Assembly: GCA_028289375.1 (NCBI GenBank) | Contig: JANQQK010000028.1 | Coordinates: forward strand, 131,318 to 195,317 | Reading direction: 5' to 3' | Origin: Phycisphaerae bacterium | GTDB taxonomy: Bacteria > Planctomycetota > Phycisphaerae > UBA1845 | Length of the DNA stretch: 64,000 bases | In this document: piece by piece, positions 41,954 through 57,836 of the stretch | Layout of the letters: every line of letters starts with the position of its first letter | Numbering within the stretch: the first letter of the stretch is position 1 | The notes under the pieces: model-generated | What the model was told of the DNA's origin: nothing | The model's database searches: none | Seen by the model: only the letters and a program-made list of their open reading frames with translations | Program-made: the position numbers and the translations under genes

Positions 41954-43708
41954 GTGGATATCATCACGCTCGTCTTTGACTCGCGTCCCGACTATCTCGC
42001 GAACGCGCCCGAAGATGCTTCCCTGCTCACGGCGCCGCTCGGTACCGCCAGCGTCCTCGAACAACTCCTCAACACCGCCGAAGACGCAGGCAGCAAGGAC
42101 TTCTTCGTCCTGCCCGATTTCGCACCCAATGAGTCGTACGAACGCCATCTTCAGGAACTCAGCGGCGGGCAGGTCAAGCTGATCGACGCCCGCTCGTGGA
42201 ACGCGCTCATCGAGTCCCATGAACTATCAGACGTGCTCCTGATCGTCGACCCACGCTATTGGCCGATCGAAGGCTACGACATCAAGGGCGCGATGAAGGA
42301 AAGCCACAACGTCCGCTGGGCGGTGCACGCCGTCTCCGTCGGCGGCGGAAGCCAATCGACCCAGGAAATCGTCCAGTGTGACGACGACGGACAGGTCCGC
42401 CGCATCGGCCGCTACTACAACCAGGTCACGTGGACCCAGATCGACGCCATCGCCTTCTCACTCGTACCGCTCGCAAGCGTCGAAGGCATTTCCTCGCGAT
42501 CGCTCGCGTCACTGCGATCGACGCTGGCGTCACGATCGGCGCTCAGTCGCGATTGGCCGCTCGAAGGCGGGGTCATCGACCTTTCTGAGGATCAAGGCCT
42601 ATTGCTTCTCAACGAGCAGTTCGCGCTCGACGCTGCCGACATGGACGTTTCCGACGGTCGGTTCCGCATACATCACGGTGTTGTCACAAGCAGTGACACG
42701 ACGGTGCACCCGTCGGCAAAGCTCGTTGGCCCCGTCGTGATTCAGCCCGGTGTTCGCGTCGAGGAAAATGCGACGATCCTCGGGCCGGCCGTGGTCGGCC
42801 GTAATGCGCGGGTCTGCCGCGATGCGCTCGTGGCCCAATCCGTCTTGTCCGAGAAGACAACCGTCCAACGCGATTGGCCTGCGCGGCAGGCGGTGGCGTT
42901 CGGCAAGTGGCAGAAGCCATCCAACGGCGCACCATCGTCCGACACGGAACGATCATTTGACCCCGTCAAGCGGCGGTTGTTGCGGTTGGGAATGGACGAC
43001 GCCGGCATTCGTGAAGCCAACGCCAAACGCGCCATCTACCCCATTTTGAAACTGATTCTCGACGTGACGATCGCCGGCATCTCACTCGTGCTGCTCTCAC
43101 CACTGCTCGCCATCGTCGCCATCGCCGTCAAGCTCGACTCCGACGGCCCGGTGTTTTTCGGCCATGGTCGGGAGGGCATGGATGGCAAGGTGTTCCACTG
43201 CCTCAAGTTCCGCACCATGGGCAAGGATGCCCACCAGCGACAGCGGGAACTGTATTCGGCAAATAATGTCGACGGACCGCAATTCAAGCTGCATAATGAC
43301 CCCCGCGTGACGCGGGTGGGAGCGTGGTTGCGGGCAACCAACATTGATGAACTGCCTCAGTTGATCAACGTTTTCCTCGGCCAGATGAGTCTGGTCGGCC
43401 CCCGACCCTCCCCATTCCGCGAGAATCAGATATGCGTCCCGTGGCGCCGGGCACGCCTGTCTGTCAGACCCGGGATTACAGGTCTTTGGCAAATTTGCCG
43501 AGATCAGCGATCAGAGGGAGATTTCCACCAATGGATCGCCTACGACATCATGTACGTTCGTCATCTCTCATTCTGGCTGGATGTGAAGATCATCCTCGCC
43601 ACCGTGCTCACCCTCGGCGGTCTCTGGAACGTCCCGCACAGTTGGCTGGTCAGCGACCACCACGCACGCTCGGACGCGCCCGAACTCAGCGACCCACAGA
43701 TTGCGTGA
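41954..43708 (+). CDS. fusion of pseudo-nucleotidyltransferase, left-handed beta-helix and phosphoglycosyl (sugar) transferase
   Basis: 584 aa from a GTG at 41954, 9 nt after the autokinase stop. Residues 1-230 look like a nucleotidyltransferase-type alpha/beta domain without its catalytic signature. About 243-305 are hexapeptide-type beta-helix turns (VHPSAKLVGPVVIQPGVRVEENATILGPAVVG cut by a few variants). From about 355 there is a bacterial sugar transferase domain: a hydrophobic helix (LILDVTIAGISLVLLSPLLA), FRTMG, the catalytic D465-E466 pair in NIDELPQL, SLVGPRPSPF and RPGITGLWQI. This domain transfers a sugar phosphate to undecaprenyl phosphate to start the repeat unit. The fusion is not the usual WcaJ or CpsE layout. 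Confidence 0.88.
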   Translation: MDIITLVFDSRPDYLANAPEDASLLTAPLGTASVLEQLLNTAEDAGSKDFFVLPDFAPNESYERHLQELSGGQVKLIDARSWNALIESHELSDVLLIVDPRYWPIEGYDIKGAMKESHNVRWAVHAVSVGGGSQSTQEIVQCDDDGQVRRIGRYYNQVTWTQIDAIAFSLVPLASVEGISSRSLASLRSTLASRSALSRDWPLEGGVIDLSEDQGLLLLNEQFALDAADMDVSDGRFRIHHGVVTSSDTTVHPSAKLVGPVVIQPGVRVEENATILGPAVVGRNARVCRDALVAQSVLSEKTTVQRDWPARQAVAFGKWQKPSNGAPSSDTERSFDPVKRRLLRLGMDDAGIREANAKRAIYPILKLILDVTIAGISLVLLSPLLAIVAIAVKLDSDGPVFFGHGREGMDGKVFHCLKFRTMGKDAHQRQRELYSANNVDGPQFKLHNDPRVTRVGAWLRATNIDELPQLINVFLGQMSLVGPRPSPFRENQICVPWRRARLSVRPGITGLWQICRDQRSEGDFHQWIAYDIMYVRHLSFWLDVKIILATVLTLGGLWNVPHSWLVSDHHARSDAPELSDPQIA

Positions 43709-44898
43709 AGCCCGACACCGCCATCGCGGTGACACGACCCCTTCGCGTTATCGGAACCCCAATTTTTACCGTCGTCGCGATGGTTTTCTGCGTCGGCTGT
43801 CCGCCCGATAACCGCATCGACCTGAACACCTTCCTCGCCCAGCAGCAGCAGGCGCAGGAAATCGAAGCCGCCGAAGCCGAAGGTGGGGTCTCAACGCTTC
43901 CCATGGACAACTACCTGACGGCCTATTCGATCGGGACGGATGACGTCCTCACCGTGACGCTCACGGGTCTCGAAGAACCGACCATCTCGTCGATCTACCG
44001 GGTCCGCGTCGACAAGGAGGGCGAGATCGATCTGCCCCTCGTCGGCGAAGTCAATGTTGGCGGGTTGGATCAGATCGAAGCCGAGGCGAAGATCAAGGAC
44101 TCCTACGTTCCGAACATTGTTCGCCAAATGACGGTGAACATTGAGGTTACGGTTTTCGATACGACAGACGTCGTTGTCAGTGGTTCGGTGCAATTGCCCG
44201 GATTGGTGCTGTTGCGGCGGACCGAGCGGAACCTGCTCTACGCCGTGCTCGGCGCCGGTGGCGTGTCGGCTGAGGCAAGCGGATGGGCGACGTTGCGTCG
44301 CGTGCGGCGGCCGAAGGATGAAGTGACATTTGATTTAATGGACCCCGTTCAACTCGACGCGGCCTTGTCGATGGATCCGCTCGAGGACGGGGATCAGATC
44401 GTGGTGCACGCGGCCCAGCCGAACACGGTCTACGTGGGTGGTTTGGTCAATCGTCCGGCGCCGCTGTCCTTCCCGCCTGGCGTGAAGGCGACCGTGCTGC
44501 AAGCGTTGGCGGCGGCGGGTGGTCTGCGGACCGACGTGTTCCCGACCGAGGGCACGCTGATCCGTCGTCAGCCGGATGGCAGCGACGTTCAAGTGCTGCT
44601 TGATCTGGACCGTATTCAGCGTGGGGAAGATGAGAACATTGAGTTGGCCGCCGGCGACATTCTCTGGGTGCCCGAGACGGTCGAGACGCGGATTCAGGGT
44701 TGGGTTGCTCAGAACGTCTTCCTGCGGGTCGGTGCGACGGTCACGTACAACGCGACGGGTGTGGAGTTCCTGAACTCGAACGCCGAGCGTGTCCAAACCA
44801 ACCAGGGCAATCTGCAGGATTCGTTTGATCCGTTTGGATTCCTGACGCGTAACGCGGCGTTGTCGAATCTGGGGGCAGCCGCCGCAGCGGCACCATAG
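43705..44898 (+). CDS. polysaccharide export lipoprotein (Wza type)
   Basis: 397 aa from a GTG at 43705 that overlaps the preceding stop by 4 nt (GTGA). This start gives a lipoprotein signal (IFTVVAMVFCVGC); the longer frame back to 43432 is a shadow of the sugar transferase gene. A polysaccharide export domain (YSIGTDDVLTVTLTGLEEP...RVRVDKEGEIDLPLVGEVNVGG) is followed by SLBB-type beta-grasp domains (GSVQLPGLVLLRR..., VYVGGLVNRPAPLSFP...). It would form the outer-membrane or periplasmic export channel. A low-complexity Ala tail closes the protein. No C-terminal Wza-like amphipathic helix is obvious. Confidence 0.9.
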   Translation: MKPDTAIAVTRPLRVIGTPIFTVVAMVFCVGCPPDNRIDLNTFLAQQQQAQEIEAAEAEGGVSTLPMDNYLTAYSIGTDDVLTVTLTGLEEPTISSIYRVRVDKEGEIDLPLVGEVNVGGLDQIEAEAKIKDSYVPNIVRQMTVNIEVTVFDTTDVVVSGSVQLPGLVLLRRTERNLLYAVLGAGGVSAEASGWATLRRVRRPKDEVTFDLMDPVQLDAALSMDPLEDGDQIVVHAAQPNTVYVGGLVNRPAPLSFPPGVKATVLQALAAAGGLRTDVFPTEGTLIRRQPDGSDVQVLLDLDRIQRGEDENIELAAGDILWVPETVETRIQGWVAQNVFLRVGATVTYNATGVEFLNSNAERVQTNQGNLQDSFDPFGFLTRNAALSNLGAAAAAAP

Positions 44899-44914
44899 CG
44901 AAGGAATCGGTCTG

Positions 44915-46051
44915 ATGGCTGAGATGATGATGGCAGCGGAGGCAATTGTGACCGGCGAGATGGCTCGATATGTCCGTGACCTGAGGGCGTTGTCGGTTGA
45001 GGCGCTGTCGCGCATGTACGTGCCGCACGATCGCCACTTCGTTTTCTGCATCCGCCGCGGGCCTGCCGGTGATCAGCCGGAAGGCTGGAGCTACCGCTAT
45101 ACCGCCATCGCGTTGATTGGACTGGCCACCGAAGATGAAGAAACGGTTCGTGAGATTCTCCGCGGTGCGACTGCGGAGGATGTCTGCACGCGACTGATCG
45201 TGCAGTTGCCCGAGATCACCAACATGGGTGACGTGGCGCTGGCATTGTGGGCGGCGAAGCTGCTTCAACACGATGGCGTCGAGGATGCCCTCGCCCGATT
45301 GCGCGAGTTGGACCCGGTCTGGGGTCCGCATCCGACCGTCGAGCTTGCATGGGCGGTGACCGCGCTGTCGGTGGATACGTCATGCGGCTGGGACGAGCAA
45401 TTCGCGGAAGAGGTGTACCGCCGGTTGTGTGGGACGTTCCATTTCGAGACGGGCGTGCCGGGTCATTGGCCTGATGGGGCGACCGCGCCGGCGTTTCGGT
45501 CGCACGTGGCCTGTTTCGCGGATCTGGTCTACCCGACGCAGGCATGGGCGTATTACCATCGCGCGACGGGCAGCGAGGAATCGAAAAAGAACTGTCTGCG
45601 ATGTGCGCAGTTCATGGTGGATCGGCAGGGGCCTGACGGTCAATGGTGGTGGCATTTCGACAAGCGTTCGGGCAAGGTTGTCGAAGGGTATCCGGTCTAT
45701 TCGGTGCATCAGGATTCGATGGCGCCGATGGCGTTGTTTGCGGCTGCCGATATGTGCGGAGCTGATCACACCGACGCGATCGAGTTGGGATTGAAGTGGC
45801 TGCAGCACTCGCCGGAGATCGACGGGACGCTGGTGGATCAGGATGCGTCGATGATCTGGCGGAAGGTGGCTCGTCGGGAGCCGGGCAAGCTTTCGCGTGG
45901 GGTTCAAGCACTGGCAAGCAAGGCGCACCCATCGTTCCGCATGCCGGGAATGAAGTCGGTGTTCCCGCCGGTCAGGATTGATTTCGAGAGTCGTCCCTAC
46001 CATCTCGGTTGGGTGTTTCACGCGTTTCCGGAGAGTCGGTTGGCGCTCTAG
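44915..46051 (+). CDS. hypothetical alpha/alpha-barrel-like protein of the polysaccharide locus
   Basis: 378 aa, soluble, with AAGGAA 8 nt before the ATG. Repeated helical pairs (GWSYRYTAIALIGLA, GDVALALWAAKLL, VYPTQAWAYYHRATGSEE, CLRCAQFMVDRQGPDGQWWWHFD, GYPVYSVHQDSMAPMALFAAADM) suggest an alpha/alpha toroid, as in terpene cyclase-like, prenyltransferase-like or glycosidase-like proteins. No recognised catalytic acid motif is present. It is unassigned, but it lies between the export lipoprotein and the WecG/TagA glycosyltransferase, so a role in building or modifying the glycan is likely. Confidence 0.75.
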   Translation: MAEMMMAAEAIVTGEMARYVRDLRALSVEALSRMYVPHDRHFVFCIRRGPAGDQPEGWSYRYTAIALIGLATEDEETVREILRGATAEDVCTRLIVQLPEITNMGDVALALWAAKLLQHDGVEDALARLRELDPVWGPHPTVELAWAVTALSVDTSCGWDEQFAEEVYRRLCGTFHFETGVPGHWPDGATAPAFRSHVACFADLVYPTQAWAYYHRATGSEESKKNCLRCAQFMVDRQGPDGQWWWHFDKRSGKVVEGYPVYSVHQDSMAPMALFAAADMCGADHTDAIELGLKWLQHSPEIDGTLVDQDASMIWRKVARREPGKLSRGVQALASKAHPSFRMPGMKSVFPPVRIDFESRPYHLGWVFHAFPESRLAL

Positions 46052-46071
46052 TCGCTGGTCGGGGGTGGGCC

Positions 46072-46866
46072 TTGGGGTCGGCGGACAGTTTTCCAAGTCA
46101 TGATTTGTTCGGTGTGCCGGTGAATGTGGCCACGATGTCGCAGGTTGTCGCATGCGCGGAGGCGTGCATTCGCGACCGGGAATCGTTGCACCTGGGCATG
46201 GTGAACGCCGCGAAGCTGGTCAACATGCGCAGTGATCAACTGCTGCGTGAATCGGTGCTGGCGTCGGATTTGATACTGGCTGACGGGATGTCGGTCGTCT
46301 GGGCGTCTCGGCTGCTGGGCAAGCGGTTGCCGGAGCGGGTGCCGGGCGTCGATCTGATGTTCGAGCTTCTGCAACGCGGCAGCGAGAAGGGTTTCCGATT
46401 CTACTGTCTCGGGGCGAAGGAAGAGGTTGTCTGCGAGGTGGTGAAGCGGATCGGCGAGCAGTATCCGGGCGCGGTCGTGGCTGGGTATCGCAACGGGTAC
46501 TTCAAGGAGGCGGATGAGCCGGGGATCATCGAGGCGATCAATGCGAGCAACGCGGACGTGCTGTTCGTGGCGATGAGCCCGCCGAAAAAGGAGCAATTTC
46601 TGGCCCGGTGGGCAGAGAAGATGAACGTACCGGTGTGCCATGGGGTGGGTGGATCGTTCGACGTGTTCGCCGGAAAGGTGAAGCGGGCGCCGGCCATCTG
46701 GCAGAAGCTGGGGATGGAATGGGCATACCGCGTGGTACAGGAGCCACGACGAATGTGGCGGCGGTACCTGGTGACGAATACGAAGTTCATGTGGATGCTT
46801 CTGAAGGCGATGCTCGGCGTGGATCGTGGTGGTGAATCGCGTCGTCCGGGAGCGCGTCCTGCGTAA
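46072..46866 (+). CDS. WecG/TagA/CpsF-family glycosyltransferase
   Basis: 264 aa from a TTG at 46072 with GGGGGTGGG just upstream. The ATG at 46009 would overlap the preceding gene by 43 nt and add an unusual N-terminus. Key motifs are NAAKLVNMRSD, ILADGMSVVWASRLLG, RVPGVDLMF, AMSPPKKEQF and GVGGSFDVFAGKVKRAP, all as in the GT26 family (WecG UDP-ManNAcA transferase, TagA ManNAc transferase). It would add a sugar to the lipid-linked precursor at the inner membrane. The epimerase at 32858-33979 makes the ManNAc-type donor that this family uses. Confidence 0.9.
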   Translation: MGSADSFPSHDLFGVPVNVATMSQVVACAEACIRDRESLHLGMVNAAKLVNMRSDQLLRESVLASDLILADGMSVVWASRLLGKRLPERVPGVDLMFELLQRGSEKGFRFYCLGAKEEVVCEVVKRIGEQYPGAVVAGYRNGYFKEADEPGIIEAINASNADVLFVAMSPPKKEQFLARWAEKMNVPVCHGVGGSFDVFAGKVKRAPAIWQKLGMEWAYRVVQEPRRMWRRYLVTNTKFMWMLLKAMLGVDRGGESRRPGARPA

Positions 46867-46871
46867 CCGGG

Positions 46872-46887
46872 TTTTCAGTGCTGAAAA
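46872..46887. promoter_or_regulatory. inverted repeat in the gap before the UDP-sugar dehydrogenase gene
   Basis: TTTTCAG-TG-CTGAAAA is a perfect 7-nt inverted repeat placed 6 nt after the WecG/TagA stop. It is AT-rich, so it is not an intrinsic terminator, and could be an operator. Confidence 0.3.
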
Positions 46888-46959
46888 GGGCGATGAGCGG
46901 GTCTAAAGTTTTGTACCGGCGCGAGAATGCGTGCGGTCGCGGGGGTCTGATCGTTTGTT

Positions 46960-46965
46960 TATAAT
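46960..46965 (+). promoter_or_regulatory. perfect -10 hexamer of a possible internal promoter
   Basis: TATAAT stands 102 nt upstream of the UDP-sugar dehydrogenase ATG (47068), in a 201-nt gap that is the longest within the plus-strand part of the locus. The -35 region (about 46937-46942) is poor, so an activator or an alternative sigma factor would be expected. Confidence 0.4.
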
Positions 46966-47067
46966 CCGCCGGGGTTTGGCGTCGATATAGATGTGTTGGC
47001 TGGGGCGTTGCCGAGCGGTGACGCCCGCCTGAGATCGAAATCACCGAGATAGAAAGAGCGAACGACC

Positions 47068-48381
47068 ATGCGCGTGACGGTTGCAGGCAGCGGATATGTG
47101 GGATTGGTGGCAGGTGCGTGTCTGGCGGATACAGGCAACGATGTGATCGGATACGACATCGACGCCGCCAAGGTCGAGGCGCTCAACAACGGTGAGATTC
47201 CGATTTTCGAGCCGGGCCTGGCGGAATTGGTCGTGCACAATCACGAAGCCGGTCGCCTGCGGTTCACAACCGATCTGCAGGAAGCGATGGATCACGCTCA
47301 GGTTGTGTTCATCTCGATCGGGACGGCGCCGCAGCCTGACGGGTCGGCTGACCTGTCGGGCATTGAGGCGTTTGCTCGGTCCATGGGGCCTGTGGTCAAA
47401 CGTGAGATGGTGGTGACGATCAAGAGCACGGTGCCGGTGGGTACGTGTGAATGGGTCGAGGGGATCATTCGCGAGTCGGCGAAGTTTCCGGTGTCGGTGA
47501 TCAGCAATCCGGAGTTTCTGAAAGAGGGTGCGGCCGTCGTTGATTTTCAGAAGCCCGAGCGCGTGGTTATCGGATACGAAAATCGCGAGGCGGCGGAGAT
47601 CGTCCGCGAGTTGTACATTCCGTTTGTTCGCAATCAGAGGCCGATCCTGATGATGCCGCGCAAGGCGGCTGAGATGGCGAAGTATGCGTGCAACGGCATC
47701 CTTGCGTCACGCATCAGTTTCATCAACGAAATGGCCAACATCTGCGATGCGGCGGGTATCGACGTGGATGATGTGCGACGCGTCATGGGAACGGACAGCC
47801 GAATCGGGTTCCAGTTTCTGTACCCGGGTGCGGGTTATGGCGGCAGCTGCTTCCCGAAGGATGTGCGTGCGTTGATGCACACGGCCCAGCAGTTCGGGGT
47901 TGATCCGCGGATGCTGCAGTCGTCGCATGAGACCAACGAAGCGCAGAAGGAAGTTCTGTTCGGCAAGGTCAGCAAGAGGTTTGGCAAGGAACTTGCGGGC
48001 AAGACAATTGCGGTGTGGGGCATCGCGTTCAAACCAAACACCGATGACATCCGCGAAGCACCGTCACTGACGCTGATTCGCCAGTTGCTCGACGCAGGCG
48101 CGAAGGTTCGGGCGTATGATCCGGAGGCGATGACGCATCTGCGCAGCGAATTCGGGGACAAGATCACGTATCACGAAGACAACTACGAGGCGCTCGACGG
48201 CGCGTCGGCCGTCGTGATCTGCACGGAGTGGAACAACTTCCGCAGTCCGGACTTCGACCGCATGAAATCGCAGTTGGCCCAGCCGATTGTTTTCGACGGT
48301 CGGAATCTTTACGAACTGACGGCGATGAAACGGGCGGGACTCGAGTACCATCCGATTGGCAAGCCGTCGGTGACGTTCTGA
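47068..48381 (+). CDS. ugd: UDP-glucose/GDP-mannose dehydrogenase family protein (Ugd-like)
   Basis: 437 aa. It oxidises a nucleotide sugar twice with NAD+, most likely UDP-glucose to UDP-glucuronate. An N-terminal Rossmann domain (VAGSGYVGLVAGACLAD) is followed by the helical core and the catalytic Cys261 in GAGYGGSCFPKD. TVPVGT, SNPEFLKEG and KPERVVIG are further family signatures, and the C-terminal domain is intact (WGIAFKPNTDDIREAP). Length is normal for UGDH. The next gene encodes UDP-glucuronate decarboxylase, which supports UDP-glucose as substrate rather than a ManNAc type, but this is not proven. Confidence 0.93.
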   Translation: MRVTVAGSGYVGLVAGACLADTGNDVIGYDIDAAKVEALNNGEIPIFEPGLAELVVHNHEAGRLRFTTDLQEAMDHAQVVFISIGTAPQPDGSADLSGIEAFARSMGPVVKREMVVTIKSTVPVGTCEWVEGIIRESAKFPVSVISNPEFLKEGAAVVDFQKPERVVIGYENREAAEIVRELYIPFVRNQRPILMMPRKAAEMAKYACNGILASRISFINEMANICDAAGIDVDDVRRVMGTDSRIGFQFLYPGAGYGGSCFPKDVRALMHTAQQFGVDPRMLQSSHETNEAQKEVLFGKVSKRFGKELAGKTIAVWGIAFKPNTDDIREAPSLTLIRQLLDAGAKVRAYDPEAMTHLRSEFGDKITYHEDNYEALDGASAVVICTEWNNFRSPDFDRMKSQLAQPIVFDGRNLYELTAMKRAGLEYHPIGKPSVTF

Positions 48382-48445: not shown

Positions 48446-49384
48446 ATGCGTGTGCTTGTAACCGGTGGTGCCGGATTTCTTGGGAGTCACTTGTGTGACC
48501 GTCTCCTGGCGGACGGTCATGACGTGGTCGCCGTCGACAACTTGTTCACCGGTGCCAAAGCCAACATCGTTCACCTGCTGGATCGCCACGATTTCGAGTT
48601 TGTCCGCCACGATGTGGTGCTGCCGATTCTGCTGGAGGTGGACTGGATATTCAATCTCGCCTGCCCCGCCTCGCCGATTCACTACCAATACAACCCGGTC
48701 AAAACCGTGAAGACATCCGTGATGGGTGCGTTGAACATGCTTGGTTTGGCCAAGCGGATCAAGGCGCGGATTCTGCAGGCGTCGACGAGTGAGATCTACG
48801 GCGATCCGGACGTTCATCCGCAGCAGGAAGCCTACTGGGGCAATGTGAATCCGATCGGCCTGCGAAGCTGTTACGATGAAGGCAAGCGCGTGGCTGAGAC
48901 GCTGATGATGGACTATCACCGTCAGAATGGCGTGGATATTCGCATCGCGCGGATCTTCAATACGTATGGTCCGCGGATGGCGGTCGGCGATGGGCGTGTC
49001 GTGTCGAATTTTGCGGTCAGCGCGATCAAAGGGACACCGGTCACGGTGTACGGTGATGGCGAGCAGACGCGGAGTTTCTGTTACGTGTCGGACCTGATCG
49101 ATGGGCTGGTGCGTCTGATGGCGTATGACGGGGATGATGCGGCTGAGCCGGTGAACATCGGCAATCCGCACGAGACGAGCATTGCGGAGTTGGTTGACTG
49201 TCTGGCGGATGTGACGCATTCGAAGTTGATTGTCGAGAAGAAACCGCTGCCGGCGGATGATCCCAAGCAGCGCTGCCCGGACATTTCGCGGGCGACGGAA
49301 CGGCTTGGCTGGTCGCCCACGGTCGACTTGCGGACGGGTTTGACAAAGACGGTTGGTTATTTTCGGGAAACGCTTTCGGTTTAG
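48446..49384 (+). CDS. UDP-glucuronate decarboxylase (UDP-xylose synthase)
   Basis: 312 aa, extended SDR. It converts UDP-glucuronate to UDP-xylose with NAD+ kept bound. Motifs are the nucleotide loop [16 protein letters not shown], the catalytic Y-D-E-G-K (SCYDEGKR), [30 protein letters not shown] and [14 protein letters not shown], all matching UXS enzymes closely. AAGGA lies about 10 nt upstream of the ATG. It uses the product of the dehydrogenase gene just before it (64 nt gap), so the pair provides UDP-GlcA and UDP-Xyl for the polymer. Confidence 0.93.
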
Positions 49385-49393
49385 GGGGCGGCG

Positions 49394-50272
49394 TTGTCGG
49401 CGAAGCTGATTGATGGACGGACGATCGCGAAGCGCCTGAAGGCGCAGACGGCCGCGCTGGTGGATGAGATCAAGTCGGCCGGTGGGGCGGTTCGGCTTGA
49501 TGCGGTGATGGTGGGTGATCCGTCGGCGGGTGCGATTTACGCGCGGTCGCAGGAAACGCGGTGTCGCGAGGTCGGGATCGACTATCGGCTGCACGCGCTT
49601 GGGACGGACGCGACGCAGCAGGATGTTGAGGGGCTGATTGACGAGTTGAACCATGACGATGCGGCTACGGGCATTCTTCTGAATCTGCCGCTACCCGATT
49701 CGATCGACACGCCTGCGGTTCAGTACAAGATCGATCCATACAAGGACGTGGAGGGGGTGAACCCGTCGAACATCGGTCTGTTGTTCTACGATTCCCCGAT
49801 CATCGCGCCGTGCACGTCGCTGGCGGTGATGGAGATTCTGAAGGAAGCGGACGTCAAGCCTCGCGGGATGAATGCGTGCGTCGTGGGGATCGGGCCGATC
49901 GCGGGCCGGCCGATTGCGCTGTTTCTGCAGCATGAGTTGGCGACGGTGACGACCTGCCACGAGGAGACGCGCGATCTTTCGGAGCATACATTGACGTCGG
50001 ATCTGCTGATTGTCGCGGCGGGGGTTCCGGGGCTGATCAAAGCAGAGCATGTGAAACCGGGTGCGATCGTGATCGACGTTGGCATCAACCGCGTTCAGGT
50101 CGACGGTGAGACGAAGGTCGTCGGGGATGTGGACTTCGACGGTGTGCGCGAGGTTGCCGGGGCCATCACACCGGTTCCCGGCGGTGTCGGACCTGTGACG
50201 GTGGCGATGCTGCTTCGCAGCGCCGTGGATGCGGCCAATCGGCAGCGTGGCCCCAGGCGGATCGAGGTTTGA
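49394..50272 (+). CDS. folD: FolD-like methylenetetrahydrofolate dehydrogenase/cyclohydrolase with substituted active site
   Basis: 292 aa from a TTG at 49394 with a GGGGG stretch upstream. The whole protein aligns with FolD: AKLIDGRTIAKRLK, PCTSLAVMEIL, VIDVGIN, TPVPGGVGPVTVAML. FolD normally makes 10-formyl-THF from 5,10-methylene-THF via NADP-dependent dehydrogenation and cyclohydrolysis. In this protein Y49 is kept, but the catalytic Lys position reads Q53 (Y-A-R-S-Q), the Q of V-Q-L-P-L-P is N97, and the D of K-D-V-D-G is E120. The NADP loop is G-I-G-P-I-A-G-R-P rather than G-R-S/A-x-x-V-G-x-P. It lies inside the polysaccharide operon, two genes before a formyltransferase. Confidence 0.85.
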   Translation: MSAKLIDGRTIAKRLKAQTAALVDEIKSAGGAVRLDAVMVGDPSAGAIYARSQETRCREVGIDYRLHALGTDATQQDVEGLIDELNHDDAATGILLNLPLPDSIDTPAVQYKIDPYKDVEGVNPSNIGLLFYDSPIIAPCTSLAVMEILKEADVKPRGMNACVVGIGPIAGRPIALFLQHELATVTTCHEETRDLSEHTLTSDLLIVAAGVPGLIKAEHVKPGAIVIDVGINRVQVDGETKVVGDVDFDGVREVAGAITPVPGGVGPVTVAMLLRSAVDAANRQRGPRRIEV

Positions 50273-50273
50273 C

Positions 50274-51494
50274 GTGGGCGACTCAGCGGCAGGAAAGAAC
50301 GGACACGCGAACGATGATCGCCTGCGTGTGATGCTGCTGACCAGCAGTCTGCATTACGGTGGCGCGGAGCGTCAGGTTGTTGAGTTGGCCAAGCAGTTGG
50401 ACCGATCGCGATTTGAACCGGTCTTATGCTGTCTGGACGGGACGCGGACGCTGTTTGATCTGAATCCGAGCGATACGCCAATTGTGATGGCCAAACGGCG
50501 CGCACGGTTCGATCCGGTTCCGTTCTGGCAGGTGGGGCGTGCGTTGAAGCGCGAATCGATTGATGTGGTGCACTGTTTTCTGTTTGATGCGGAAGTCATC
50601 GGACGGGTGGCTGGCTGGTTCGCGCGGACTCCAGCCGTGATCGCGTCGGAGCGCAATTCGGACTACCCAGTCATGCCGATCAAGGATCGCGTGCAACGGG
50701 CGACGCGGACGATGGTCGATCTGGTGATTGCCAATTCACACGCCGGCAAGCACTATGCGTGCGGGCATCTCGGGTTTGCGGATGAACATGTCGTCGTTGT
50801 GCACAATGGCGTCGACACGGATCGTTTTTTGCCGGGTGACAAGGGCGAAGCGCGAAAACGGATCGACATCACGCGGGACGGTCCTGTCATCGGCATGTTC
50901 GCCAGTTTCAAGGGTCAGAAGAATCACGCCATGTATTTCCGGGTGGCACGCCGGGTTGTTGACCGCATTCCCAATGCGACATTCCTGTGTGTCAGCCATA
51001 CGCCGTTGGGCGACCGCACATCGGGGGAATATCAGGCGTCGCTGAACGTGCTGCTCGATGAGTTGGAATTGCGCGATTCGGTCCGGATTCTGACCAACCG
51101 CGACGATGTTGAGCAATTGTATCGGGCTTGCGACATGACACTGTTGACAAGCAAGCGGGAAGGGACCCCCAACGTCGTGCTGGAATCGATGGCGTCGGGT
51201 GTGCCGGTGGTGGCGACGGACGTGGCGGACAACGCGCGGATTCTTGATTCCGAGAGCGGCGGGGGCGTGGTGACACTCGATGACGATCCCGCGATGGTGG
51301 AGATGGTCTGTCGCATGGTAGGTGACGAAGCGGGGCTTCACTCAGCCGGCGAGAAAGCGCGTGAAAAGGCTGTCCGCTGCTATTCGCTTCGTACATGGGC
51401 AGACCGGATCGGCGATCACTACGAATCCACGCACGCACGCAAGACGGGCCGGGTTGCACGGCTGACGTCGACGACATCCACGGGTGATGCCTGA
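50274..51494 (+). CDS. glycosyltransferase family 4 protein
   Basis: 406 aa from a GTG at 50274, 1 nt after the FolD-like stop and preceded by GAGG. GT-B fold: N-terminal loop SLHYGGAERQVVELA, VIASERNSD, VHNGVDTDRF, FASFKGQKNH and the donor-site E-x7-E segment KREGTPNVVLESMASG. It transfers a sugar from a nucleotide donor to the growing lipid-linked oligosaccharide at the cytoplasmic face. The donor cannot be predicted from sequence. It overlaps the next gene (formyltransferase) by 1 nt (TGATG). Confidence 0.92.
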   Translation: MGDSAAGKNGHANDDRLRVMLLTSSLHYGGAERQVVELAKQLDRSRFEPVLCCLDGTRTLFDLNPSDTPIVMAKRRARFDPVPFWQVGRALKRESIDVVHCFLFDAEVIGRVAGWFARTPAVIASERNSDYPVMPIKDRVQRATRTMVDLVIANSHAGKHYACGHLGFADEHVVVVHNGVDTDRFLPGDKGEARKRIDITRDGPVIGMFASFKGQKNHAMYFRVARRVVDRIPNATFLCVSHTPLGDRTSGEYQASLNVLLDELELRDSVRILTNRDDVEQLYRACDMTLLTSKREGTPNVVLESMASGVPVVATDVADNARILDSESGGGVVTLDDDPAMVEMVCRMVGDEAGLHSAGEKAREKAVRCYSLRTWADRIGDHYESTHARKTGRVARLTSTTSTGDA

Positions 51495-52312
51495 TGCGCG
51501 TATTCGTGCTGGTCAACCCTTCGCTGAGCACGTTTCATCAGAAGGTCCTTGGGCATCTGTTGGCCGACGAATCGATCGAGATTGTCGGCGGCTTGATCGA
51601 CACACGACCGAAGCCGTCCGGTTTCAGGAAAATCAAACGCGAGTTGAAACGCGGGCGGGGCGGGTACATTCTCGTGCAGGTGTTCGGGAAGCTGTTTTCG
51701 CGATCGAACGGTGATGGTGAATCGGTCGATGCCAGTGGATTCTTCGCCTCGGCGACGACAGAACTGCGTGCATGCACCGATCTCTACGCCGATGACGTGA
51801 TTGAGTTCGTGCGATCCTGCAAGCCGGATGTGGTGTTTCGCGCCGGGTTCGGGATTATCAAGGAACCGTGGCTGTCGATCGCGCCGCTGGGCATTCTGTC
51901 GTACCATCATGGCAATCTGCGTTGCTATCGGGGGCAGCCCGTCGGATTCTGGGAGGTCTACGACGGAGCCGCGGAGATGGGCGTGACGTTGCAGCGATTG
52001 AATGCGCGACTCGATGCGGGGGCCATCATCCGCGAGATGATGTTGCCGATCGAACCGGGCGACTCCTGGTCGACGGTCTATCGCCGGGCATATGATGCGA
52101 GCGATCGATTGGCCGTCGAGGCGTTGCGGGCGTTGGCGGACGATCCGGACGCCGGTGTCTGCCTGTCGGATGACGAGATGGGCAGGGTCTACACGACGCC
52201 CAACTTGCGTCAATGGCTGACGATGCATGCCCGCGTGTTGGGGCGTCGATTGCGTGGTTTGTTCGGCGGATCGCGCGGATCGAACGGGCAGGCGGAGCGT
52301 GTGCATTCGTGA
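51494..52312 (+). CDS. formyltransferase family protein (sugar N-formyltransferase candidate)
   Basis: 272 aa. The central part matches the formyl_trans_N domain: PDVVFRAGFGIIKE, LGILSYHHGNLRCYRGQP, GFWEVYDGAAEMGVTLQRL, LDAGAIIRE. Members use 10-formyl-THF to formylate an amine, on tRNA (Fmt), GAR (PurN) or amino sugars (ArnA, WlaRD and similar). Of the catalytic N-x-H-D set, His (H138 or H139) and Asp (in LDAGAII) are kept, but the Asn position is Ser/Tyr. The C-terminal tRNA-binding domain of Fmt is absent, so a small-molecule substrate such as a nucleotide sugar is more likely. Overlap with both neighbours (1 and 4 nt) places it in the operon. Confidence 0.83.
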   Translation: MRVFVLVNPSLSTFHQKVLGHLLADESIEIVGGLIDTRPKPSGFRKIKRELKRGRGGYILVQVFGKLFSRSNGDGESVDASGFFASATTELRACTDLYADDVIEFVRSCKPDVVFRAGFGIIKEPWLSIAPLGILSYHHGNLRCYRGQPVGFWEVYDGAAEMGVTLQRLNARLDAGAIIREMMLPIEPGDSWSTVYRRAYDASDRLAVEALRALADDPDAGVCLSDDEMGRVYTTPNLRQWLTMHARVLGRRLRGLFGGSRGSNGQAERVHS

Positions 52313-53619
52313 ATGGGGCGGGCGTGATGGAACCGGTTTCGACGCAACAGAACCCCGCCCACGACGCGCAAGCCGGCAAACATGTGTCGGCCAAGCTGCT
52401 AGAGTATCCCTATCCGTTCAAGTCTGCGATGGCGATCTGCAGCGATCTCGATGAGACGCCCGACGCGAAGGTCTATGCGGAGATCGCCCGATTTCTCAAT
52501 ACCTCGGAGACGACGTCGATGGGACGCGGCGTCGATCTGGAAGTCGGCAACTCGATCTACTTTCTCATGCCCGATGATCAGTACGCCTATTGGACGACCG
52601 ATGACGCCGGTCGCGAAATGGCCCATGCATTGATTCGCAGCGGACATATCGATGTGCTGCATTCCTATGGTGACTTTGCGACCAAGCGTGATGACGTAAA
52701 GCGCTGCATCGACGAACTGAACAAGCACGATCTGCGGATCAACGTCTGGGTCGATCATTCCAAAGCGCCGTCCAACTTCGGGCCTGACATCATGGTCGGG
52801 TCGGGTGACGTGCGCGAATCGGAGGTTTACCACGCCGACCTGACGCTTGACTACGGCGTTCGCTATGTCTGGCGTGGACGAACGACCGGTGTGGTCGGAC
52901 AGAACATGCCGATCACGCGTCGCTCGCTGACGAATCTTCTGAACGCGGCGCACCCGGTGATTTCCACGCGCACGATGTTCAAGGAAGCCGTCAAGATTCG
53001 ACTCGGCCGCAAGGGACATCCGCGCTGGGAAATGTACGCCGACAACCGTGTCTTACGGCCGAGCACGTTGCGTGACGGCCAACCGATCTGGGAGTTTCTG
53101 CGGTCGAATCCGTATTGGAAGGGGTCTGGCAAGGGTGACACCGGCGACGAAGTGGGCCATGTGTTGTCGCAGCGGATGTTGAACAACCTGTCACGCACAG
53201 GCGGCGTCTGCCTGCTATACACGCATCTTGGCAAGGTGTCCGATGCGGGTTGTCCGTTCAATGACGCGTCGGTGGCGGGGCTGCGACGCTTGGCTTCGAT
53301 GCAGGAATCGGGATGTGTCTTCGTGACGACCACATCTCGATTGCTTCGCTACCTGACCGTACGCGATGGCCTTCAGTTTGACGCGCGTCGGAATGGGGAA
53401 AGTGTCTCCCTGACTCTCGGATCGATCAGCGATCCGGTACATGGCGATCGGCCAGCGTGCGAGGCGGATTGCATGGGCCTGACGTTCGAACTCGACCGAT
53501 GCGAGAACATTCGCGTTGCGCTTGCAAACGGAAGCGTGCTTGATCACAACCTGTACCACGATGGCAACCGGACACGCGTATCCATCCCGTGGCGTCGCCT
53601 CTCCTTCCCGGACATCTGA
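52309..53619 (+). CDS. polysaccharide deacetylase-like protein
   Basis: 436 aa from a GTG at 52309 that overlaps the preceding stop by 4 nt (GTGA), with GGAG 11 nt upstream. It has no signal peptide. Near the N-terminus, MAICSDLDETPD resembles the D-D motif of NodB-type carbohydrate esterases. Further His-containing stretches (VLHSYGDFATKRDD, WVDHSKAPSNFG, LLYTHLGK) could supply the metal site. The C-terminal 110 residues are beta-rich. I assign the deacetylase-like fold with moderate confidence; it may remove N-acetyl groups so that the formyltransferase can act on the free amine, which is only an inference from neighbours. Confidence 0.6.
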   Translation: MNGAGVMEPVSTQQNPAHDAQAGKHVSAKLLEYPYPFKSAMAICSDLDETPDAKVYAEIARFLNTSETTSMGRGVDLEVGNSIYFLMPDDQYAYWTTDDAGREMAHALIRSGHIDVLHSYGDFATKRDDVKRCIDELNKHDLRINVWVDHSKAPSNFGPDIMVGSGDVRESEVYHADLTLDYGVRYVWRGRTTGVVGQNMPITRRSLTNLLNAAHPVISTRTMFKEAVKIRLGRKGHPRWEMYADNRVLRPSTLRDGQPIWEFLRSNPYWKGSGKGDTGDEVGHVLSQRMLNNLSRTGGVCLLYTHLGKVSDAGCPFNDASVAGLRRLASMQESGCVFVTTTSRLLRYLTVRDGLQFDARRNGESVSLTLGSISDPVHGDRPACEADCMGLTFELDRCENIRVALANGSVLDHNLYHDGNRTRVSIPWRRLSFPDI

Positions 53620-53676
53620 CATGCTGAATGGCGACGCTCGATCGACACGACCGAGTTGTGCAACGGAGCGATCGTC

Positions 53677-54897
53677 GTGAAGGCGCTCCTCTGTCGATTC
53701 CTGCTGATCAAGGTCTGCGCGGTGGCGTGGACGATTGCCTGCGTCGGACGCATGCTGCGACGTCCCAGACGTCGCGCCGTCGGACGCATGTTCGCCACGG
53801 GCACATTCTACAACGACAACTGGTTCCTTTCGCATGCACGACCACTGGCAGCCGCCGGTCTCGGTGAGGTTGTTTTCGTCGCCGACGAACCGCTGAGTGT
53901 CACGATGCCGAACGGAGTGCGTTTCGATTGCCCGCCACGATGGCTGCGAAAGTGTGCGGGCCGCGCCGGTTCGAAGGCGTTGTGGATGACGTGGCTGGGG
54001 ATTCGCGATGGTGCGGACGTGTTCATGGGCTACCACATCTTTCCGGGGGCGATCACCGCGCTGATTGCGTCGGCCATCGGTGGCGGTCGAGCCGTCTACC
54101 AGATGACGGGCGGGCCGATCGAGATGATCGGTGGCGGATGGCAGGCGGAGAACCCGGTGATGGCCGCGATCGGCAAACCATCGCCGTGGGTCGAGCGATG
54201 GATGGTGCAGGTTGTGCGCCGCTTTGATCGCGTGATTGTGCGTGGTCAGCGAGCAGCCGAGTACATTCGCGGATTGCACGGGCGTGGGCAGGTCGATGTG
54301 ATCACCGGCAGTGTGGACATTCCTGACGTTGTTCGAGACCAGCAGGATCGCCGGTGCGACATGCTGTTCGTTGGGCGGTTGGGAGCGATGAAGCGACCAG
54401 TGTTGTTCGTGGAGACGGTGGCCAGGGTACGCGACGCGTTTCCCGACGTACGCGCGATGATGATCGGTGGCGGAGCGATGGCGTCTGATGTTCGCGAGGC
54501 CGTCGAGCGTCTCGAATTGACCGCAAACATTGACGTCATCGGGCAATCGGATGACGTGGCCACCGCGATGCACGATTCCAGGTTGTTTCTGCTCACGTCC
54601 TCGTCGGAGGGGTTGTCGATCTCGATGCTGGAGGCGATGGCGACTGGTTGTGTCGTCGTGGTATCGGACGTTGGTGAGCTATCGGACGTTGTTCGCGACG
54701 GGGTGACAGGGCATCTGGTCAGAGGGGGACAGGCTGGGGAATTTGCGGATTGTGTTACGCGACTGTTGGGCGATGGTGAACGTTGTGCGGCGTTGGCGTC
54801 TGCCGGGCGCGAGGCTGCGATCGCGATGGCGTCCGTGGAGGCAGTTGGTGTGCGATGGCAGGCAAGTCTTGGGGATTGGATGGGAAAAGGCGGGTAA
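53677..54897 (+). CDS. glycosyltransferase family 4 protein (paralogue A)
   Basis: 406 aa from a GTG at 53677 with GGAG 9 nt upstream. An N-terminal hydrophobic stretch (LLCRFLLIKVCAVAWTIACVG) may anchor it to the membrane. GT-B motifs include GTFYNDNWFLSH, YQMTGGPIEMIGGG, LFVGRLGAMKRPVLF, IGQSDDVATAM and the donor-binding E-x7-E segment SSEGLSISMLEAMATG. The protein is clearly related to the one encoded at 56610-57836, sharing GTFY-x2-NW, VYQM-x-GGP and the layout. The two flank the DUF362 gene. Confidence 0.88.
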   Translation: MKALLCRFLLIKVCAVAWTIACVGRMLRRPRRRAVGRMFATGTFYNDNWFLSHARPLAAAGLGEVVFVADEPLSVTMPNGVRFDCPPRWLRKCAGRAGSKALWMTWLGIRDGADVFMGYHIFPGAITALIASAIGGGRAVYQMTGGPIEMIGGGWQAENPVMAAIGKPSPWVERWMVQVVRRFDRVIVRGQRAAEYIRGLHGRGQVDVITGSVDIPDVVRDQQDRRCDMLFVGRLGAMKRPVLFVETVARVRDAFPDVRAMMIGGGAMASDVREAVERLELTANIDVIGQSDDVATAMHDSRLFLLTSSSEGLSISMLEAMATGCVVVVSDVGELSDVVRDGVTGHLVRGGQAGEFADCVTRLLGDGERCAALASAGREAAIAMASVEAVGVRWQASLGDWMGKGG

Positions 54898-54922
54898 ATC
54901 CGGGCTAAAATAGGGCGTTTGA

Positions 54923-54968
54923 TTGCGGGTTATCGGTCGTGGCCTGATAATGATGGTTCACGATCGTG
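54923..54968 (+). promoter_or_regulatory. promoter with palindrome over the start site, upstream of the DUF362 gene
   Basis: TTGCGG (54923-54928), a 17-nt spacer and GATAAT (54946-54951) form a plausible promoter with a start near 54958. The perfect 10-nt palindrome CACGATCGTG (54959-54968) covers the predicted start site, a position typical of a repressor operator. The same 10 nt occur at 20491-20500. Confidence 0.45.
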
Positions 54969-55103
54969 CGGGGCGGGTCTGACACCGATATGGAAGGTGG
55001 AACCGCCCTGAATGCGCCGGGTCATGGTGGCGGCGCGCTGAGCCGGAAGGGGAATGGGCATGATGTTATCGGGCGGTTTCGTCGAGGGCGTGAGGTGACG
55101 CAG

Positions 55104-56597
55104 ATGCTTCAAAGTGAGCAGGTGGCGGTGTACCGCGGTGCGGCATTCTATGCGGATGTTCCGCCGTATCACCCGACCGAGTGTTACCCCGAGTATGCGT
55201 TCGGTTCGTCGTATCTGGGGCCGGAGAACCCGGCCTATGCATCGGTGCGTGGCGCGTTGGGAATGCTCTGTCCGGACGGTTTTGGTACCAGCGATTGGAA
55301 TCCGCTCGCCGGCGTGGTGAAACCCGGTGATACGGTCGTGCTCAAGCCGAATTTCATTCGCGACTTCCATGATACGCGTCCGGATGAGGTCATCAGCCTC
55401 ATCACGCAGGGCAGTGTGATTCGCGCCATGCTCGACTACGTGGCGATCGCGCTGCAGGGTGATGGCCGGATTACGATCGCCGACGCCCCCCAATGCGAAG
55501 CCAACTTTGATCGCATCAAGATGTTCACCGGTGTGGACGAGATCAGAGCTTTCTACAACGACCACTCGTCCATCGAGGTGGATGTGATCGACTTGCGACC
55601 TGAGTACGCCGTCAAGCAGGATGGCGTGATCGTCGATCATCACGAACTGCCTGGTGACCCGGCTGGTTACGCGGTGATCAACCTCGGTCGACACTCGGAG
55701 TTCATGCCGATCAATCATATGAATCACCGGCTTTACGGCAGCGAGTATGACCGTAGCGAGGTGTCGGACCATCACCACGACGATGTGCATGAGTACAAGA
55801 TTTCCAAGACGATTCTCGATGCCGATGTCTTCATCAACTTGCCGAAGATGAAGTGCCACAAGAAGGTCGGGGTCACGCTGAATCTCAAGAACCTCGTCGG
55901 CATCAATGGCAACAAGAACTGGTTGCCTCACCATCGCGAAGGCGTGCCAGCAGACGGTGGGGACCAATATGCGGATTCTGGTTTGTCCGAGCGGCTGGAG
56001 CAGAAGGTGCTGGCCACGTTCAAGAAGCACTTTCCCAAGCTTGGGCCGCTGCGCAAGCTGATCGGCGGTGCTGCCAAGAAGGTTGGAACAGCCACGTTCG
56101 GCGATACGAATACGTCGCGCATTCGATCGGGAAACTGGTGGGGCAATGACACGACGTGGCGGATGGTGCTGGATCTGAACCGTTCACTGCGCTACGGCGA
56201 CGGCGAGGGGCGGCTGCATGATAGGCCGCAGCGGCGGTACTTCAGCCTCGTCGACGGGATTGTTGGGGGGGAAGGCAACGGTCCGATGGGCAGCGATCCT
56301 CGGGCTGAAGGTATCATTGTGGCGGGGGTCGATCCGTTGGCGGTCGATTTGACCTGCACGCGACTGATGGGGTTCGACCATGAGCGCATTCCGACACTGA
56401 TCGAAGCGCTCAAGGATCATCAATATCCGCTCAATGGCAACGCATTTGATCATGTTCGGGTGGTCTCCAACGAAGACGCGTACAACCGGGCATTGTGCAC
56501 CATCGAAGGGCAGTGCCTGGATTTTGTGCCGCACTTCGGATGGGTCGATCACATCAAGTTGAGTGATCGGCTGGGCGTTGCGGTGAACGGGGCGTAA
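55104..56597 (+). CDS. DUF362 domain-containing protein
   Basis: 497 aa from the ATG at 55104 (GAGG 8 nt upstream). In-frame ATGs at 54990 and 54966 are alternatives, but the extra residues are Gly-rich and not family-like. DUF362 hallmarks are KPGDTVVLKPNFIRDF, ITIADAPQ, NLPKMKCHKKVGVTLNLKNLVGINGNK (cut here as N-L-P-K-x-K-x-H ... T-L-N-L-K-N) and ADPLAVDLTCTRLMG-like text in VDPLAVDLTCTRLMG. Biochemical function of the family is unknown. A free-standing copy in a polysaccharide locus between two paralogous GT4 genes suggests a modification or carrier role. No iron-sulfur cysteine motif is present. Confidence 0.8.
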   Translation: MLQSEQVAVYRGAAFYADVPPYHPTECYPEYAFGSSYLGPENPAYASVRGALGMLCPDGFGTSDWNPLAGVVKPGDTVVLKPNFIRDFHDTRPDEVISLITQGSVIRAMLDYVAIALQGDGRITIADAPQCEANFDRIKMFTGVDEIRAFYNDHSSIEVDVIDLRPEYAVKQDGVIVDHHELPGDPAGYAVINLGRHSEFMPINHMNHRLYGSEYDRSEVSDHHHDDVHEYKISKTILDADVFINLPKMKCHKKVGVTLNLKNLVGINGNKNWLPHHREGVPADGGDQYADSGLSERLEQKVLATFKKHFPKLGPLRKLIGGAAKKVGTATFGDTNTSRIRSGNWWGNDTTWRMVLDLNRSLRYGDGEGRLHDRPQRRYFSLVDGIVGGEGNGPMGSDPRAEGIIVAGVDPLAVDLTCTRLMGFDHERIPTLIEALKDHQYPLNGNAFDHVRVVSNEDAYNRALCTIEGQCLDFVPHFGWVDHIKLSDRLGVAVNGA

Positions 56598-56609
56598 GGA
56601 ACGGACGTC

Positions 56610-57836
56610 GTGCTGAAACGATTTGCAGCCAGCTCCGCGATGTTCGCGTTTCTGCTTCTGGTTCACGGATGCAGAGGCGTTGGCGCGGTGCTGTCTGTGT
56701 TTCGCGGGCGCAGCGCGTTGAAGGGGGTGCGGGTCCTGGCGATCGGTACGTTCTATCACAAGAACTGGTACGAGTCGCATTTGGCCCCCTTGGCGTCTGC
56801 CGACATGGTCGACGCGTTGTACGTGGTCTCCGGTGAGTCGGGCATCAGGATGAAAGGTGTGACATGGTGTGTCGCTCCGACATGGCTGCGATCGATCTTG
56901 CGGATGCATGGGGCCCGGTTTGTTTGGTCGATGGTCACCGCGATGAGGCGCAGACCTGACGTGATCGTGGGTTACTTCGTGTTTCCCAGCGCGTTGTGGG
57001 CATTGGCGCTCAGCCGGCTGATTGGGGCGAAGTCCGTCTATCAGATGTGCGGCGGCCCCCGGGAGTTCACGCGCTGCGGCGCTGACTCGGGCAACGCCAT
57101 GCTCAAGTACATGTTGCCCGGATTCCCGCTCCTGGAGCGAATCTTGTACGCAGCCATCGCACAGTTTGATCTGATCATCGTCCGTGGAGCACGGGCAGAG
57201 GCATTCTGTCGCGAGCATTTTCCGTCAACACCGGTCAGCGTGATCACCGGAGCCATCGATCAGGAGCGCTTCAATCCGACGCAAAACGGAGTCGACGTGC
57301 GTTTCGACGTGATGACGGTGTGTCGACTCGCCCCAGTCAAGCGCCTCGAGATGTTGCTTGAAGCGCTGGCCAAGGTGGTCGATAAGCGACCGAAAACGCA
57401 TGCGGTGATCGTCGGCGATGGTCCGGCCCGTGCTGAGTTGGAGGCGTTGGCGAAGCGATTGAGACTGACCGAGCACGTGTCGTTTGTCGGCACGCAGGAC
57501 GAAGTCGAACGGTTTCATCATCAGTCACGCCTTTACGTCATGACCAGCCGCGACGAGGGATTGTCCATCGCGTTGGCAGAAGCCATGGCATCGGGATTGC
57601 CTGCGGTCGTGACCGATGTGGGCGAATTGGGTGAGTTGGTTCGGGATGGGCGAAATGGTTACCTCGTCCCGTCTGGGGATGCGGATACGTTGGCTGAGCG
57701 ACTGCTGTCGCTGCTCAATGAAGATGAGCAACGGCAGAGCATGGCCAAGCGCGCCGCGGAAGATGCGTTCAGCACATGCGGACTGCCGCACGTTGCGGAT
57801 CGCTGGAACAAGGCATTGATGGGGTTAGCCGGTTGA
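56610..57836 (+). CDS. glycosyltransferase family 4 protein (paralogue B)
   Basis: 408 aa from a GTG at 56610 with AAGGA about 8 nt upstream. The N-terminus has a hydrophobic stretch (SSAMFAFLLLVHGCRGVGAVL). GT-B motifs are GTFYHKNWYESH, VYQMCGGPREFT, VITGAIDQERF, CRLAPVKRLEMLLEAL, FVGTQDEVERFH and the donor-site segment RDEGLSIALAEAMASG. It is a paralogue of the protein at 53677-54897. Together with the GT4 at 50274 it gives three elongating transferases of this family in the locus. Its stop overlaps the TTG start of the CapA-like gene. Confidence 0.92.
   Translation: MLKRFAASSAMFAFLLLVHGCRGVGAVLSVFRGRSALKGVRVLAIGTFYHKNWYESHLAPLASADMVDALYVVSGESGIRMKGVTWCVAPTWLRSILRMHGARFVWSMVTAMRRRPDVIVGYFVFPSALWALALSRLIGAKSVYQMCGGPREFTRCGADSGNAMLKYMLPGFPLLERILYAAIAQFDLIIVRGARAEAFCREHFPSTPVSVITGAIDQERFNPTQNGVDVRFDVMTVCRLAPVKRLEMLLEALAKVVDKRPKTHAVIVGDGPARAELEALAKRLRLTEHVSFVGTQDEVERFHHQSRLYVMTSRDEGLSIALAEAMASGLPAVVTDVGELGELVRDGRNGYLVPSGDADTLAERLLSLLNEDEQRQSMAKRAAEDAFSTCGLPHVADRWNKALMGLAG

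Follow-up and report, generated by a model that had tools for sequence, protein, structure and literature searches.

The described systems closest to this locus are the bifunctional FolD enzymes, the split FolD and FchA systems, and the sugar N-formyltransferases. A split FolD and FchA system is reportedly present in Clostridium perfringens (Aluri et al. 2016, cited in PMC7219735). In sugar N-formyltransferases, the catalytic triad consists of Asn-His-Asp. In the E. coli FolD, Lys54 is needed for the cyclohydrolase activity (PMC5688156). The K54N mutant shows no detectable cyclohydrolase and about 19% of dehydrogenase activity, and Q98H conserves about 1% of cyclohydrolase and 8% of dehydrogenase (PMC5688156). 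The survival of such mutants was attributed to spontaneous hydrolysis (PMC5688156). We found no paper describing a folD gene inside a formylated-sugar operon in the open-access literature searched.

We analyzed a window of 64,000 nucleotides. It is part of contig C25 of a Phycisphaerae genome (G000; 4.99 Mb, 99.27% complete). The near relatives used for comparison were Phycisphaerae MAGs, and G001 is the sole other member of the same genus. The window presents a polysaccharide operon with the following genes:

43432..48381, + strand: upstream operon genes (export protein, cyclase-fold-like, WecG glycosyltransferase, UDP-glucose dehydrogenase), in the same order in G001 and G014
48446..49384, + strand: UXS-like NAD-dependent epimerase/decarboxylase gene (UXS), directly upstream of folD; Pfam GDP_Man_Dehyd/Epimerase
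49394..50272, + strand: folD, the only gene of the FolD family in this genome; 54Q/121E subfamily, PF00763 and PF02882, predicted dehydrogenase-only
50274..51494, + strand: GT4 glycosyltransferase gene between folD and FMT; Pfam Glyco_transf_4 / Glyco_trans_1_4, GTG start
51494..52312, + strand: FMT, formyltransferase-fold gene; PF00551 (3.4e-14, residues 93-211), with Ser136-His138-Asp174 replacing Asn-His-Asp
52327..53619, + strand: DAC, deacetylase-like gene whose protein family is undescribed; probable start, no Pfam or NCBIfam match
53656..57836, + strand: downstream operon genes (GT4, DUF362 protein, GT4); the first two are present in G014 and absent in G001

The row of UXS, folD, GT4, FMT, and a deacetylase-like gene, reported in the first-pass annotation, is real. 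We read the spacing from the sequence. Between the UXS stop (49384) and the TTG start of folD (49394), there is a gap of 9 nt. The folD stop (50272) and the GTG start of GT4 (50274) are separated by 1 nt, and the base 51494 is common to the GT4 stop and the ATG of FMT (1 nt overlap). DAC corresponds to a 468-codon ORF, which overlaps FMT if the mechanical start is taken. More likely, it starts at a GTG or ATG located about 12-15 nt past the FMT stop. Pfam and NCBIfam support the UDP-glucose dehydrogenase, the UXS-like epimerase, FolD (both domains), GT4, and Formyl_trans_N.

The order of the folD region is identical in G001. As it is kept at a dS of about 1-2 between the two genomes, we rejected a misassembly or an accident of one genome. 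Both genus members keep the arrangement; it is not unique to one genome. Separately, the operon encodes a DUF362-domain protein (window 54966-56597), with 63% identity in G014 and missing from the operon of G001.

The protein search and PF02882 agree on a single FolD-family gene in this genome, with no second, canonical FolD. A search with PF01268 gave no match for a formate-THF ligase. With a sole FolD and no such ligase, the entire cell must depend on this folD. A sole folD is also what the first-pass annotation named as an argument against its own reading. Besides FMT, there are five more Formyl_trans_N genes in the genome. From general metabolism, the purine and initiator-tRNA enzymes must be among them, and the one FolD must supply these as well.

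Orthologues of this folD (about 47-85% identity) are present in most of the 60 relatives. About half of the relatives having the orthologue also carry a second, canonical FolD (~40% identity). The commonest neighbor of the orthologue is a protein of ~510 aa (Pfam: Peptidase_M48), present in 25 loci and nearly always directly adjoining; in most relatives, folD comes after this gene. In the genome of the window, the M48 gene is found at C13:51611-53089. The genes c26, c12, c62, c10, and c9 lie on its upstream side, in the order that they have beside folD in G021. This old slot contains a Na/H exchanger 12 nt downstream of M48 and no trace of FolD. In the FolD tree, G000 and G001 are nested in the family with G014, G015, G020, G021, and G030 (clade support 0.88). 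Since the genus is nested in the tree and the slot behind M48 has no folD, folD was moved rather than imported. A horizontal gain is not favored.

In the other relatives examined, the folD orthologue is outside polysaccharide loci, with G001 of the same genus as the exception. The UXS orthologues conserve 68-91% identity in the family and, outside the genus, are not followed by folD. G015 presents UGD-UXS-GT4 without folD. The G014 operon consists of BexD-SqC-WecG-UGD-UXS-GT4-DAC-GT4-DUF362, where GT4 and DAC are separated by 3 nt. As this operon has neither folD nor FMT, the simplest reading is that both genes entered on the branch to the genus. Synonymous substitutions between G000 and G001 approach saturation (dS 0.9-2.3). 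The dN/dS values of folD (0.083) and FMT (0.126) are similar to those of neighbor genes, as estimated by NG86, which is rough at such dS. These values indicate that folD and FMT are under purifying selection in both genus members. The best reading is that folD is a relocated housekeeping gene and not a dedicated supply enzyme. Its co-regulation with the operon is possible.

The Formyl_trans_N match of FMT leaves the N-terminal part of the protein outside. Among PDB entries, the ArnA formyltransferase domain matches FMT best (2.4e-12). FMT shows Ser136 in place of the catalytic Asn and conserves His138 and Asp174. This Ser-type motif is present in 14 of 15 aligned homologues (Phycisphaerae, other Planctomycetota, and haloarchaeal plasmids), and the alignment shows His138 and Asp174 kept across the Ser-type subfamily. 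The closest homologue outside the genus belongs to G059 (50%). The AlphaFold model of FMT, from a two-sequence alignment, has a mean pLDDT of 38, too low to be of use. Some longer ORFs (L291, L294, L236; 557-618 aa) also contain a formyltransferase domain of the Ser type, together with a long C-terminal extension.

In G059 and Natronorubrum bangense, the formyltransferase gene directly adjoins or overlaps a polysaccharide deacetylase gene, confirmed as such by Pfam. Haloarcula halobia presents the same pair, but with an Asn-type enzyme. These pairs are located at L290 8147-9876, L224 6568-8471, and L300 2937-4561 (one relative in Phycisphaerae and two plasmids of haloarchaea). The deacetylase-formyltransferase pair is a recurring theme, though in few loci.

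DAC has no match in Pfam, NCBIfam, or PDB, and its nine homologues are all without a Pfam match, NodB/Polysacc_deac_1 included. Its comparison by hhalign with a small deacetylase set, of very few sequences, gave a probability of 0.3%. DAC as a known deacetylase thus found no support in Pfam, PDB, and this very small hhalign set. On the other hand, eight homologues conserve it, and its His, Asp, and Trp motifs are invariant among them. The AlphaFold model (two-sequence alignment) has a mean pLDDT of 39, also too low for use. The DAC family (window 52327-53619) is scattered in Planctomycetota and one Alicyclobacillus plasmid. The first-pass annotation described a deacetylase-like gene adjoining FMT, which could expose the amine for it. 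The position is correct. The deacetylase label is not confirmed by these searches, though the homologues share D/H motifs. The G014 operon has DAC without FMT or folD, so in G014 DAC is not present to feed FMT, and in the simplest reading it did not arise to serve it.

How folD came to lie beside FMT admits two readings. Housekeeping genes do get trapped in operons, and folD might have hitch-hiked in a neutral rearrangement, with FMT unrelated to it and perhaps not folate-dependent. We hold this only tentatively. The replacement of the usual catalytic Asn and the N-terminal part outside the Pfam match are consistent with it. However, the His and Asp kept across the FMT subfamily, and the purifying selection on FMT (dN/dS 0.13), speak against it.

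Alternatively, the relocation was selected, which is possible but somewhat doubtful. With the sole folD inside the operon, synthesis of the formylated polysaccharide would always come with a higher one-carbon supply. The gene would still work cell-wide, with its expression tied to FMT. The entry of both genes on the same branch points in this direction. Likewise, folD and FMT still flank the same GT4 in both genus members at the dS of about 1-2, while GT4b and DUF362 nearby were lost or gained. Few genes feed a formyltransferase, so the random landing of one is unlikely. Nevertheless, this is a single evolutionary event in two genomes, and coupling an essential enzyme to such an operon could be costly. 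Moreover, no FolD gene was seen near Ser-type or related formyltransferases outside the genus in the bacterial and haloarchaeal loci examined. As an argument against a plain relocated housekeeping gene, it would be a striking coincidence for folD, of all genes, to settle at two genes' distance from an unlinked formyltransferase, and its landing there may not be pure chance.

The FolD of the window has 292 aa, and both domains are full length (PF00763 2.4e-28, PF02882 6e-58). Compared with E. coli FolD, it presents the substitutions K54Q, Q98N, and D121E, and it conserves Tyr50. All 40 orthologous loci of the family and order have 54Q and 121E. The second FolDs show K/Q/D at positions 54/98/121 (19 of 19). 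Outside the order, 54Q is accompanied by 121E in all 12 FolDs that have it, and 54K by 98Q and 121D in all 58. Across Phycisphaerae, Anaerolineales, Dongia, Magnetovibrio, and others, the changes Lys54 to Gln and Asp121 to Glu (E. coli numbering) always co-occur (52/52 sequences). In Brocadiaceae, a 54Q FolD is near a pterin-binding methyltransferase-like gene (L064 4672-5481; AcsE/MetH type, judged by eye).

Given K54Q and the published loss of cyclohydrolase in K54N, this FolD is predicted to be a dehydrogenase only, with the cyclohydrolase lost. The residues of the cyclohydrolase step are substituted, so 10-formyl-THF, assumed at first to be its end product, is not the expected one. The E. 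coli K54N mutant differs from the natural K54Q/D121E background, where a residual cyclohydrolase activity could persist.

The genome also has a stand-alone short FTCD_C-family gene, of FchA or cyclodeaminase type (C13:4471-4980, 200-aa ORF). Its protein matches both cyclodeaminases and the FchA cyclohydrolase in PDB, with almost the same score for the two types (49 and 43 bits for the pair). A short FTCD_C gene is present in every relative whose only FolD is the 54Q/121E type. Of the 12 genomes outside the order with the 54Q FolD type, 4 are without any FTCD_C gene (Dongia and Magnetovibrio among them), and several FTCD_C matches sit in long FTCD-like frames. On these grounds, a strict rule of FolD(54Q) with FchA across bacteria was rejected. 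The second FolD of several relatives is on the same contig as an FTCD_C gene and close to it. In G003:C10, G005:C183, G006:C149, and G044:C51, the canonical second folD is within about 2 kb of a long-frame FTCD_C gene. These pairs suggest a histidine-degradation cluster.

An ordinary bifunctional FolD, where another residue stands in for Lys54, seems unlikely. The overall match is strong (1e-65 to PDB 3l07), and those four genomes without an FTCD_C gene fit this idea. In contrast, K54 mutants have no detectable cyclohydrolase (PMC5688156). Besides, 54Q and 121E are never found apart, and in the order the short FTCD_C gene accompanies them. We also consider improbable the combined claim that the 54Q/121E subfamily is dehydrogenase-only beside a separate cyclohydrolase and, at the same time, that the sole folD moved so that the one-carbon supply rises with a polymer-formylating Ser-type FMT. 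Finally, the pathway-dedicated bifunctional folate enzyme proposed in the first-pass annotation, supplying 10-formyl-THF to a sugar N-formyltransferase, agrees with the gene order and Pfam content, but it is extremely improbable, and a dedicated paralogue was rejected: this FolD is the only one and has no formate-THF ligase as bypass, its orthologue lies away from polysaccharide loci in the remaining relatives examined, and its cyclohydrolase residues are lost.

The relocated housekeeping gene is thus the explanation that we prefer. Quite probably, a sole and vertically inherited folD was relocated into the polysaccharide operon, and its product would act as a dehydrogenase with an FchA-type partner elsewhere. 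The data show that folD is unique, that it was relocated, that its residues changed, and that the genus conserves the arrangement, whereas the loss of cyclohydrolase, the partnership with FchA, and any use by FMT are inferences. In the ancestor of the genus, folD would have moved from the slot behind the M48 peptidase gene into a pre-existing operon, between UXS and GT4. The FMT gene would have joined on the same branch. FolD most likely oxidizes 5,10-methylene-THF to 5,10-methenyl-THF only. The conversion of 5,10-methenyl-THF to 10-formyl-THF could depend on the FchA-type protein or on spontaneous hydrolysis. The resulting 10-formyl-THF would go to purine synthesis, to the formylation of initiator tRNA, and, provided that FMT is active, to the polysaccharide.

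The case illustrates how a gene essential for one-carbon metabolism can be brought into the operon of a polysaccharide. The natural FolD subfamily, with the cyclohydrolase Lys replaced jointly with Asp121, offers an example, open to testing, where the two activities of a bifunctional enzyme would have been split. In the open-access literature searched, we found no tested function for formyltransferases of this Ser type from polysaccharide loci of bacteria and haloarchaea.

Compared with known systems, FMT shares the Ser-type motif and 38-42% core identity with the haloarchaeal 'formyltransferase family protein' genes of polysaccharide loci. In Natronorubrum bangense, this gene overlaps a polysaccharide deacetylase gene. 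However, the haloarchaeal loci have no FolD nearby. FMT resembles the sugar N-formyltransferases (ArnA N-terminal domain and others) in the Formyl_trans_N match, the His and Asp of the triad, and the polysaccharide context. It differs in the Ser for the catalytic Asn, the S-x-H-H-G motif, and the absence of the SLLP motif. With the bifunctional FolD (PF00763 and PF02882), the protein of the window has in common both full-length domains, Tyr50, and the NAD(P)-binding domain. Nevertheless, the changes at positions 54, 98, and 121 set it apart as a predicted dehydrogenase only. Finally, it is similar to split FolD and FchA systems, such as that of Clostridium perfringens, in having a separate short FTCD_C gene alongside FolD. 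The difference is that here this separate gene is tied to a distinct 54Q/121E FolD subfamily.
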